Part shown: one piece after another, positions 54,024 to 59,576 of the stretch
Position numbering within the stretch: position 1 is the first letter of the stretch
Layout of the letters: every line of letters starts with the position of its first letter
Source of the DNA: an uncultured Sphingomonadaceae bacterium
Lineage (GTDB): Bacteria; Pseudomonadota; Alphaproteobacteria; Sphingomonadales; Sphingomonadaceae
Assembly: GCA_947493955.1 (NCBI GenBank)
Contig: CANLSQ010000002.1
Location: 310,001 to 374,000 of the forward strand
Reading direction: 5' to 3'
DNA: 64,000 bases
The notes under the pieces: generated by a model
Databases searched by the model: none
Seen by the model: only the letters and a program-made list of their open reading frames with translations
Told to the model about the DNA's origin: nothing
Position numbers and translations under genes: made by a program

Positions 54024-54647
54024 ATGGCAAAAAAAAGTGCAGCGATAAGAAAACTGACTCAGGCCAACAAGCCTGACCCCGATGGCCGGCGTCAACGCAG
54101 TCAGGCCAGCCGCGCCAAAATCATTGCCGCCTTCATGGAGCTAATGGAAGCTGGTGATCCCAGTCCCAGTGCGGCACGTGTCGCGAAACGCGCTGGCGTT
54201 GGATTGCGCTCTGTGTTCCGCCACTTTGACGACATGGATTCCATTTATGTGGAGGTTGATCGGCTGCTCGGTGAACAATGGCGGCCCGTGCTGAACAAGC
54301 CCTATAAATCCACCAATTGGCGGGATCAGCTGAACGAGTTGATCAAGCGCCGGGCAGAGGTGAATGAAGATACCGCCCCCTACAGGCTGACCACCATGTT
54401 CGCACGGTTTCATTCTGCTCAGCTTATGAAAAATTATGAGCGGCTGATGAAAATTGAAGCCGATGCGCTGAACGACATTTTGCCGAAATCCGTGCAGAAG
54501 GACAAAAGACGAAGCAGGGCGATTCTGCTGGCGACAAGCTTCGATAGCTGGCGCCTATTCCGGCACGATCAGGGGTTGAGCAACAAGCGGACGATTGAGA
54601 CGATGGCGCAGATTGTAAAAGATATTGTTGCTCATATTGACGAATAG
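54024..54647 (+). CDS. TetR/AcrR-family regulator of the cluster
   Basis: A 207-residue regulator with a basic N-terminus and HTH at about 36-66 (SAARVAKRAGVGLRSVFRHFDDMDSIYVEV). The C-terminal domain is divergent. It is the only DNA-binding gene inside the catabolic cluster, and O3 lies immediately before it. I infer that it represses the O1-O6 sites until a substrate or breakdown product is present. It is followed 3 bp later by the FGE gene. Confidence 0.88.
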   Translation: MAKKSAAIRKLTQANKPDPDGRRQRSQASRAKIIAAFMELMEAGDPSPSAARVAKRAGVGLRSVFRHFDDMDSIYVEVDRLLGEQWRPVLNKPYKSTNWRDQLNELIKRRAEVNEDTAPYRLTTMFARFHSAQLMKNYERLMKIEADALNDILPKSVQKDKRRSRAILLATSFDSWRLFRHDQGLSNKRTIETMAQIVKDIVAHIDE

Positions 54648-54650
54648 ATT

Positions 54651-55565
54651 GTGCGTATCAGGATAGTCGGTCTTTTGTTTTTGTTGCTGTCCGCTTGCGG
54701 GCAGGATGGGACAAATCCGGAAGCGCAGATTTGCACTGACCTCACAGAAAATGAAATGGTCTGGATTCCCGCAGGCAGTTTTACCATGGGCGAAAATCCC
54801 CGCTATCGCGAAGAAGGACCACCCAGAACCATCCATGTGGATGGATTCTGGATAGATGCGCATGAAGTAACCAACGCGCAATTCGCTGCCTTTGTGGAAG
54901 CCACTGGATATAAAACGCTGGCCGAACGGGAACCACCGAAGATGGAAGGTGCACCAGCAGAAATGCAGCGGCCCGGCTCGGCGGTTTTTAACGTGCCGAG
55001 TGACGATGATCCGCGTTGGTGGCACTGGGTTCCGGGTGCCGAGTGGCGGCATCCTTCTGGACCGACTGAAAAAATAGATGGCCAAGAGAAAGTGCCCGTC
55101 GTCCAGATCGCTTATGACGATGCGCTGGCCTATGCCAAATGGGCTGGCAAGGCGCTGCCCAGCGAGGAGCAGTGGGAATATGCGGCTCGCGGCGGTGAAG
55201 CTACGCGCCCAGAACCCAAAGATGCTGCCGGCGCGCCGCAGGCGAACTATTATCAGGGTGTTTTTCCTGCCAGGGATCTGGGTGAGGATGGTTTCACAAC
55301 GCGCGCGCCAGTGGGGTGTTTCCAACCCAATGGTTTCGGGCTCTATGATATGCTTGGCAATGTCTGGGAATGGACAACCAATGATGGATCGCGCGCCGAT
55401 GCGAGTGAGGCTGTGAAGGTGATCAAAGGCGGGTCCTATCTCTGTGCGGCCAACTATTGTGCCCGCTATCGCCCCGCGGCGCGGCAGTTTCAGGAGCGCG
55501 GACTGGGGACAAACCATATCGGGTTTCGGCTGGTCGAAAACGACAAGCCTGCGCCCACAGACTGA
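54651..55565 (+). CDS. formylglycine-generating enzyme (SUMF1/FGE), predicted lipoprotein
   Basis: A 304-residue protein with GTG start at 54651. The N-terminus MRIRIVGLLFLLLSACG is a lipoprotein signal (lipobox LSAC). The FGE-sulfatase domain runs from MVWIPAGSFTMG (about residue 32) to the end. The catalytic pair is present: Cys265 and Cys270 in KGGSYLCAANYCARYR, spaced exactly as in human SUMF1. It would oxidise the CAPSR Cys of the neighbouring sulfatase. Bacterial FGEs are usually cytosolic. The lipoprotein signal suggests a periplasmic, membrane-tethered maturation step. GAACAGTGG-like ribosome sites are weak, and it may be coupled to tetR. Confidence 0.85.
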   Translation: MRIRIVGLLFLLLSACGQDGTNPEAQICTDLTENEMVWIPAGSFTMGENPRYREEGPPRTIHVDGFWIDAHEVTNAQFAAFVEATGYKTLAEREPPKMEGAPAEMQRPGSAVFNVPSDDDPRWWHWVPGAEWRHPSGPTEKIDGQEKVPVVQIAYDDALAYAKWAGKALPSEEQWEYAARGGEATRPEPKDAAGAPQANYYQGVFPARDLGEDGFTTRAPVGCFQPNGFGLYDMLGNVWEWTTNDGSRADASEAVKVIKGGSYLCAANYCARYRPAARQFQERGLGTNHIGFRLVENDKPAPTD

Positions 55566-55629: not shown

Positions 55630-56622
55630 ATGAAAATCTTGCGAACCCCCGATGCCCGTTTTGAAAATCTGTCCGGCTATGATTTTGCACCGCATTATTC
55701 GGAAGTGACCGCTGCCAATGGCGCGGCGCTTCGCCTGCATTATCTCGACGAAGGCCCGCGCGATGGAGAGATTATCCTTTGCATGCACGGCCAGCCGTCC
55801 TGGTCCTATCTGTACCGAAAGATGATACCGATTTTGGTCGATGCCGGTTTTCGCGTCATCGCCCCCGACCTGATCGGTTTTGGCAAGTCGGATAAACCCT
55901 CACATATCGATGACTATACCTACCAGAACCATGTGGACTGGATGAACCAGTGGTTTCTGGCGATGGATATCTCAGATGTTACTCTGGTCTGTCAGGATTG
56001 GGGTGGGCTGATTGGCCTGCGCGTCGTGGCAGACAATGTGGACCGTTTTGCCCGGCTTGTTGTCGCCAATACCGGTCTGCCATCGTCCCGGACAGTTACG
56101 CCTGAAATGTCCGAGATGTTAGGTAAACTTTATCCCACCATCCCCGTTCCCAATGCGGCAATGGTTCAGGAGCAATTTGCCAGTGGTTCGCCAACAGCCT
56201 TTCTATACTGGGTAAAATATGCCGCTGAAAGCTCTGAATTTACAGTGCGTGAGGTATTCAACCTTCTTTCCGGTATCACGAACCAGAATATATTAGACGG
56301 CTATGAAGCGCCGCATCCTGATGAGAACCATAGCGCCGGTGCTCGTAAGTTTCCATCTTGTGTTCCCCTGTTGCCGCATCACCAGGCAGACCGCGATGCC
56401 AACGACAAGGCATGGGAAGTTCTGGAGAAATTTGAAAAGCCGGTCCTGACGGCATTTAGCGACGGTGATCCGGTGACAAAAGGTGGTGAAACCCAGTTTC
56501 AGGAGCGTATTCCCGGCGCGAAAGGCGTTGAGCATGTCACGATCAAGGGCGGCGGGCATTTTTTGCAGGAGGATCAGCCTGAACAGCTGTCCGAAACCAT
56601 TATCAACTTTATGAAATCATAG
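55630..56622 (+). CDS. haloalkane dehalogenase homologue (DhlA-type alpha/beta hydrolase)
   Basis: A 330-residue alpha/beta hydrolase similar throughout to DhlA (MKILRTPDARFENL, HYLDEGPRDG, HGQPSWSYLYRKMIP, APDLIGFGKSDKP). The nucleophile is Asp123 in CQDWGG with Trp124, a halide contact in dehalogenases. The acid is probably Asp280 (SDGDPVT), and the base His310 (GGGHFLQED). A Trp in FLYWVKY may be the second halide Trp. The oxyanion loop has Gln where DhlA has Glu. It should displace halide from a halogenated alkane, although hydrolysis of another bond cannot be excluded. Confidence 0.85.
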   Translation: MKILRTPDARFENLSGYDFAPHYSEVTAANGAALRLHYLDEGPRDGEIILCMHGQPSWSYLYRKMIPILVDAGFRVIAPDLIGFGKSDKPSHIDDYTYQNHVDWMNQWFLAMDISDVTLVCQDWGGLIGLRVVADNVDRFARLVVANTGLPSSRTVTPEMSEMLGKLYPTIPVPNAAMVQEQFASGSPTAFLYWVKYAAESSEFTVREVFNLLSGITNQNILDGYEAPHPDENHSAGARKFPSCVPLLPHHQADRDANDKAWEVLEKFEKPVLTAFSDGDPVTKGGETQFQERIPGAKGVEHVTIKGGGHFLQEDQPEQLSETIINFMKS

Positions 56623-58505: not shown

Positions 58506-59576
58506 CTATTTTAACTGTGTCTGTTCGATATTGGTCTGGCCTACCGGCAAGCTGAACAGCATGCCGTCTTCACCAACCGTGATTTTCCCATCAAATTTAT
58601 CCGGTGCATCGGCCAGAAAGGCGGGGTAGAAATAGCTGCTGGGAATAGGCGGCACCAGATGGCTGAGCACCAGCTGTTTTGCGCCAGCCGCCTGTGCCGA
58701 TTCCGCTGCTTCGGTAGGCGTGGCGTGATAATCCATTATGTCCTTGGTGATAATCGCCACATTGTCCATCCCGCGTTTTTCCAGACCCGCAGTCATCTGC
58801 TTGACCATATGTGAGGCCAGTGCTTCATGGACAAGCAGCTCTGCACCCTCGCAAACCCGCTCAAGATTGGCGGATTTGGCTGTATCACCGCTGATGCAGA
58901 CCGAACGCCCTTTATAGTCAAACCGATATCCTACGGAGGGAATAACGGGATCATGGTCGACCTTGAAGGCAGTGATTGTGAGACCGTCTTTTTTCAGGAT
59001 TACGATCATTTCGCCGATCATTTCAAAGGGCTTCGCTTCTGCGCCGCCACCGGTTGACGGCGCAATTTTCTCGCCGTGATGGGTCGTGCGATATATATTG
59101 TCGGTCGCATAGGCAGCGTTAAAGCCATCGACAATCGCCTCCACCCCTGTCGGTCCATGCACTGGAAGCGGCGCCTTGCTAGCGCCCTGTGTCCAGTGGA
59201 AAAGCATCAGCGGCCCCATGCCATCAACATGATCGGAGTGGAAATGGGTCAACAACACGCCATCAATCTCGGGAGCCGGTATCGCCATCAGATTGAGATT
59301 ACGGGCGCCACCTTCTCCAATATCGACGACAAATACCTGCTCGCCTGCGATGACAACATTGCACGGCCCCGCACGATCCGGGTTGGGAAGCGGTGAACCA
59401 GTTCCGCACAGCCCCACATGCAGACCATCGTCCAGTCCGGCCAGATTATCAGTGCCGATACGTGCATCCAGGCCGCGCTCAAACAGGCTGGAACCGATCT
59501 GTTTCTGGAACAGGAAAACAGACGCAACCGCGACGATCACCAAAACACCAACAACCAGACAAATCTTTCTAAACAT
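58506..59576 (-). CDS. MBL-fold metallo-hydrolase, AtsA-like
   Basis: A 356-residue protein with a membrane anchor or signal (LVVGVLVIVAVASVFLF) followed by a metallo-beta-lactamase fold. GLCGTGSPLPNPDRAGPCNVV and THFHSDHVDGMG (dinuclear zinc site), then VCISGDTAKS and VLSHLVPP. The opening GTGSP-x-P-x-P-x-RAGP pattern is shared with the RNase Z-like arylsulfatase AtsA group, so it may be a second, cofactor-free sulfatase. This is based on resemblance from memory. It faces the MDR gene across the O5/O6 region. Confidence 0.8.
   Translation of the reverse strand: MFRKICLVVGVLVIVAVASVFLFQKQIGSSLFERGLDARIGTDNLAGLDDGLHVGLCGTGSPLPNPDRAGPCNVVIAGEQVFVVDIGEGGARNLNLMAIPAPEIDGVLLTHFHSDHVDGMGPLMLFHWTQGASKAPLPVHGPTGVEAIVDGFNAAYATDNIYRTTHHGEKIAPSTGGGAEAKPFEMIGEMIVILKKDGLTITAFKVDHDPVIPSVGYRFDYKGRSVCISGDTAKSANLERVCEGAELLVHEALASHMVKQMTAGLEKRGMDNVAIITKDIMDYHATPTEAAESAQAAGAKQLVLSHLVPPIPSSYFYPAFLADAPDKFDGKITVGEDGMLFSLPVGQTNIEQTQLK

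Follow-up and report, generated by a model that had tools for sequence, protein, structure and literature searches.

A predicted lipoprotein formylglycine-generating enzyme and a possible periplasmic site of sulfatase maturation

Where in a bacterial cell do sulfatases acquire their formylglycine? In animal cells sulfatases are activated in the endoplasmic reticulum (ER), and the locus described here suggests that a bacterium does likewise outside the cytoplasm, with a membrane-anchored enzyme. The window (the whole stretch of DNA analysed; 64,000 nucleotides from an uncultured Sphingomonadaceae bacterium) encodes a formylglycine-generating enzyme (FGE) that a sequence-only reading had taken for a periplasmic lipoprotein, against the usual description of bacterial FGEs as cytosolic. 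That description is correct as far as the literature goes: a passage of PMC4505483, the paper that established copper in FGE, sets the ER enzyme against a prokaryotic one that "resides in the cytosol". The covered part of the review PMC3920027 describes Cys-type sulfatases as typically cytosolic and Ser-type as periplasmic, while the covered parts of PMC6388578 and PMC10154612 treat exported sulfatases and FGE and give no location for the latter. Our literature search, whose coverage left out most subscription papers, turned up no paper describing a bacterial FGE that is exported. What appears to be new, in an enzyme family that is itself known, is the compartment together with a clade-wide extra cysteine pair. 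Judging from sequence, we consider it likely that the gene encodes a lipid-anchored, periplasm-facing FGE that matures Sec-exported sulfatases in the periplasm.

The FGE gene and its leader

The product of the gene (Table 1) is a bona fide FGE-family protein. Its PF03781 match covered residues 33-295 and scored 242.5 bits (cut-off 23.3), and its best solved relative was human FGE (5ssy/1y1e, E 6.8e-57). The AlphaFold2 (AF2) model had a mean pLDDT of 87.5 and a pTM of 0.85, and Foldseek searches with it returned human FGE first (5ssx, E 1.7e-29), followed by actinobacterial FGEs. The SUMF1 Cys pair named in the sequence-only reading, C265 and C270, is present; it sits within GGSYLCAANYCARYR, which fits the FGE Cys-pair pattern GGSxxCxxxxC.

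The lipobox that this reading had placed after a hydrophobic leader is also there. The leader, MRIRIVGLLFLLLSAC-G, has a brief basic N-terminus, then a hydrophobic stretch and, at its end, a lipobox with Cys16, followed by Gly rather than Asp. By the E. coli rule, Gly instead of Asp after the lipid cysteine points to the outer membrane, which by analogy suggests that the window FGE is a lipoprotein of that membrane. Translation would begin at a GTG codon that follows the stop codon of a TetR-like gene by four bases, and the ribosome-binding site before it is weak; no inverted repeats were found around the FGE gene. Because of this start and ribosome-binding site, we tested the conservation of the leader. 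All 33 relatives with 60-83% core identity to the window FGE (measured over residues 36-296) retained a lipobox (32 by script; VSAC in L034 by eye), with variants including IVGC, LAGC, LTAC, LSGC, FSGC, and LGSC. Their residues preceding the Cys were only 7-53% identical to those of the window FGE. A diverged leader with a kept lipobox is the pattern expected from selection for a lipoprotein leader.

Two further genes were noted downstream. Immediately 3' of the FGE, window positions 55630-56622 (+) encode a haloalkane dehalogenase-like protein (PRK00870, 441 bits, above cut-off). Positions 58506-59576 (-) encode an RNase Z-like protein of the metallo-beta-lactamase fold with an N-terminal hydrophobic anchor (NCBIfam, 182 bits, below cut-off).

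Table 1. Features of the window that bear on the FGE and its proposed client.
Feature	Position in window	Strand	Basis
Sulfatase, probable client, with a membrane anchor at its N-terminus; CAPSR at C118 (50665-50679)	50314-51993	+	PF00884, 187 bits; sequence
TetR-like regulator immediately 5' of the FGE	54024-54647	+	PF00440, 23.2 bits, just below cut-off of 24
FGE (SUMF1/PF03781 family), 304 aa, predicted lipoprotein	54651-55565	+	PF03781; human FGE match; AF2 model
Export leader, residues 1-15 (MRIRIVGLLFLLLSA)	54651-54695	+	Sequence; lipobox conservation
Lipobox L13-S14-A15-C16 (LSAC)	54687-54698	+	Sequence
C28 in the linker, putative partner of C223	54732-54734	+	Alignment; survey
C223 (within APVGCF), putative partner of C28	55317-55319	+	Alignment; survey
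Active-site cysteines C265 and C270 (LCAANYC)	55443-55460	+	Both present in 36 of 36 aligned sequences

Sulfatases and candidate maturation enzymes in genomes with exported FGEs

The source genome (3.4 Mb, 100% complete) contained four PF03781 matches in three ORFs, namely the window FGE, a second FGE (L002) and an EgtB-like ORF that lacks the Cys pair. L002 has a leader ending in LLVSC and carries its Cys pair in GGSYLCASNYC; neither it nor the extra cysteine pair described below had been remarked on in the sequence-only reading. Both Cys-pair FGEs of this genome bear a lipobox, and none without a leader was found. Formylglycine is also the product of anSME/AtsB, radical-SAM enzymes unrelated to FGE; in this genome no anSME scored over the cut-off (top match 22 bits against 349). 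Five sulfatases contained the CxPSR motif, each with a leader (three signal peptides, the membrane anchor of the window's sulfatase, and one lipobox-like leader, L009), while the other three PF00884 matches lacked it. With two lipoprotein Cys-pair FGEs only and no anSME over cut-off, the sole candidate enzyme of a known kind is exported, if these sulfatases carry formylglycine.

The sulfatase of the window is a probable client of the FGE. It has one N-terminal hydrophobic segment, positioned after KNWKK and with no evident cleavage site, which makes a periplasm-facing anchor likely, in agreement with the orientation proposed for it earlier.

Elsewhere in the genome, L002 (C1:184942-188796) lies about 1 to 6 kb from three exported sulfatases (L005, L007, and L009), one of which has a lipobox-like leader, and is adjoined by a glycosidase-like ORF. 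The EgtB-like ORF is followed by a second ORF (L003/L004; C1, about 313 kb), which we take to resemble an EgtD-type methyltransferase.

We then considered 11 relatives with a single, exported FGE. No further Cys-pair PF03781 protein was found in these genomes, nor any anSME at E 1e-20. They yielded 30 sulfatase-family matches: 22 bore the motif and Sec-type leaders, one had a Sec-type leader and no motif that we could find, one was Tat-type (L304), two were leaderless choline sulfatases (L305 and L306), and four failed to match the Cys-sulfatase model. Sec-type leaders were thus present on 22 of the 25 motif-bearing sulfatases. The Tat-type sulfatase belongs to a genome (G360) whose only FGE is exported. 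The same holds for the genomes with leaderless choline sulfatases, G422 and G477 (L305, TIGR03417 768 bits; L306 alike). These two proteins genuinely speak against a strict rule of compartments, by which Sec clients would go with exported FGEs and Tat-type or leaderless clients with cytosolic ones. The exported-FGE model leaves the source of formylglycine for L305 and L306 unexplained.

The same two choline sulfatases would be accounted for if an unknown cytosolic enzyme matured the sulfatases, with the exported lipoprotein FGE only repairing or duplicating its work. However, the choline sulfatases of those two genomes may be inactive or unmodified. Neither the source genome nor the 11 relatives offered an anSME (over cut-off in the former, at E 1e-20 in the latter) or another Cys-pair PF03781 protein as such an enzyme, and a leader on every Cys-type sulfatase of the source genome also argues against it. 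We regard this explanation as unlikely.

A second set comprised eight genomes that were selected because they encode a cytosolic FGE, in which 30 of 33 sulfatase matches were examined. The motif-bearing sulfatases included 15 with Sec-type leaders, 6 with Tat-type leaders, and 5 without a called leader; the other 4 lacked the motif or a model match.

A clade of FGEs with export leaders and its extra cysteine pair

In searches with an FGE alignment, FGE-positive genomes numbered 28 of 289 in the class (threshold 1e-45), 103 of 249 in the family (1e-60), and 60 of 398 in the phylum (1e-60). Part of the matched loci provided 223 distinct FGE frames, all chosen for the Cys pair. Leaders were called by a written heuristic and by conservation, with some rows decided by eye. 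The heuristic assigned 113 frames as exported (74 with a lipobox, 39 with a signal peptide or membrane anchor) and 110 as leaderless. Inspection moved L107, L099, L101, and L255 to exported and L199 and L173 to cytosolic (115/108), and L027 also to exported, giving 116 exported and 107 cytosolic FGEs. Among loci from the family search, 46 of 111 FGE frames were exported and 65 were not.

A tree was built from 87 representatives, excluding the long-branch rows L048, L050, and L246. The window FGE and the second FGE of its genome fell into one clade of 51 rows (UFBoot 100, SH-aLRT 98; bootstrap not fully settled). All 51 rows have an export leader by heuristic and by-eye calls (L027 by eye), of mixed lipobox, signal-peptide, and membrane-anchor types. 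Named organisms among loci of the exported-FGE kind included Novosphingobium, Erythrobacter, Sphingomonas, Henriciella, Filomicrobium, and Acinetobacter.

Most of this clade carries two further cysteines, corresponding to C28 and C223. C223 was present in 96 of the 223 frames, every one with a leader (92 by heuristic; L107, L099, L101, and L255 by eye), and 95 of these 96 also had a linker Cys; the exception, L099, has one beyond the counted stretch. The 127 frames without C223 were divided into 106 called leaderless and 21 exported. Conversely, 106 of the 110 FGEs called leaderless lacked C223, the remaining four being the same four frames with visible leaders. Rows of the exported clade without C223 (L243/L273, L247/L248, and L265; L248 is not in the 87-row tree) also lacked the linker Cys; a disulfide between the two would predict such joint absence. 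L027 departs from this pattern, with a linker Cys and no C223. The co-occurrence of C28 and C223 is strong but clade-structured across the 223 frames and the 87-row tree. Extra cysteines and export follow the tree, leaving three supported independent pairs, in two or three of which both cysteines change together; this is not significant, and with three comparisons a sign test cannot reach significance. In the AF2 model C28 falls within a block of mean pLDDT 55. C28-C223 is a candidate structural disulfide that would form in an oxidising compartment.

Among FGEs in loci spanning 9 kb or more, 45 of 73 exported and 40 of 60 cytosolic ones had a Cys-type sulfatase in the same locus. The 73 sulfatases near exported FGEs comprised 60 Sec-type, 4 Tat-like, 2 without a called leader, and 7 truncated; by eye, the Tat-like L258 resembles a membrane anchor and both uncalled sulfatases have a leader. 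Of the 63 sulfatases near cytosolic FGEs, 30 were Sec-type and 11 Tat-type, no leader was called for 16, and 6 were truncated. Some of the 16 (L191, L185, and L199) have leaders by eye and about a dozen do not. Tat-type and leaderless sulfatases were concentrated around cytosolic FGEs, and Tat-type neighbours also occurred at two loci with C223-bearing FGEs (L230 and L241). The Sec-type sulfatases beside cytosolic FGEs (30 of 63) imply that a Sec client alone does not require an exported FGE. From these neighbour counts, the strict compartment rule is only partly true.

Exported proteins with an FGE-like fold and other roles do exist: GldJ, GldK, and PorK are lipoproteins, as is predicted for the window FGE, and PvdO is periplasmic. 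The former serve in T9SS/gliding structure and the latter in pyoverdine maturation. A comparable role, in which the window FGE is exported and makes no formylglycine, draws on its NCBIfam matches to GldK (102 bits) and PvdO (81 bits), which lie far below the cut-offs of 350 bits (GldK/PorK) and 500 bits. Scores against the sulfoxide synthases EgtB, OvoA, and SenA were 85, 42, and 74 bits (cut-offs 360, 400, and 420). A structural lipoprotein or a PvdO/EgtB-like role was rejected on these cut-offs. Solved FGEs outscored the alternatives (196 against 66-76 bits), and the Cys pair was invariant in the 36-row alignment, as it is by selection in the 223 surveyed frames. The sulfatases beside 45 of the 73 exported FGEs, and a source genome that has sulfatases and no leaderless Cys-pair FGE, likewise make a role apart from formylglycine quite improbable.

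An ordinary cytosolic FGE, started at the next in-frame ATG (54756; M36, at the domain start) or at an internal TTG, would fit the GTG codon and weak ribosome-binding site, but we dismiss it as very improbable: a start at M36 would delete the leader and a lipobox kept in all close relatives as well as C28, whose counterpart accompanies C223 almost without exception, no relative backs it, and starts within the leader would leave a broken hydrophobic segment. The prediction of a periplasmic lipoprotein FGE is supported by the kept lipobox, the all-exported clade, and the genome content.

A proposed route of maturation outside the cytosol

In our model of periplasmic maturation, Sec would pass the FGE and its sulfatase clients over the inner membrane, both unfolded. 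The FGE would be lipidated at Cys16 and its leader cut off. It would then fold in the periplasm, where closure of a C28-C223 disulfide would pin the linker to the catalytic core. C265 and C270 would hold Cu(I) and, with O2, convert the CxPSR Cys of the client to formylglycine, a chemistry carried over by analogy from characterised FGEs. A client such as the window's sulfatase would be modified on emergence from Sec, ahead of folding. Against the model, the oxidising periplasm may oxidise C265/C270 or the client Cys.

The parallel to the ER arrangement drawn in the sequence-only reading is apt, and the extra Cys pair extends it. Human FGE (SUMF1) and the window FGE share the fold, the active-site Cys pair, an N-terminal extension with Cys, clients arriving through Sec, and a non-cytosolic oxidising compartment (predicted here). 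They differ in retention, which would rely on a lipid anchor here and in the human enzyme occurs through Cys50/Cys52 and ERp44, as a passage of PMC4505483 describes. The human disulfides given in that source, 346-235 and 365-218, are unlike C28/C223. Human and Thermomonospora curvata FGE (6s07/5nxl) have Ala at the C223 position. The T. curvata and Streptomyces coelicolor (2q17/6muj) enzymes resemble the window FGE in catalytic domain and Cys pair, whereas the prokaryotic enzyme of the PMC4505483 passage is cytosolic, unlike the predicted location here.

A wider proposal seems to us probable, though held with less confidence than that for the gene itself: a disulfide-marked proteobacterial clade of exported FGEs, lipid-held, membrane-anchored or soluble, would mature Sec-exported sulfatases once these have crossed the inner membrane. 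There would then be two maturation compartments in bacteria, the periplasmic one an independent counterpart of the ER. If the clade serves exported Cys-type sulfatases, this contradicts the quoted statements of PMC4505483 and PMC3920027. Such a system would let sulfatase maturation of the ER type be modelled in bacteria. It would need a copper-loading route and an electron donor of its own, and simple genetics could then address how copper and reductant are supplied outside the cytosol. Making formylglycine-tagged proteins in the periplasm of E. coli may also become easier.

Exported FGEs also occurred outside the 51-row clade. Six exported tree rows lay there, including Algoriphagus (L031) and Mesonia (L039) of the Bacteroidota, Phycisphaera (L038), and Nevskia (L030). 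Six Cys-pair FGEs of Bacteroidota and Phycisphaera (L031, L038, and L039, so placed, and L041, L046, and L049) have lipobox-like leaders and lack the C28/C223 pair. FGEs from other members of the phylum (L267, L268, L270, and L271), also without the extra pair, carry a single N-terminal membrane anchor.
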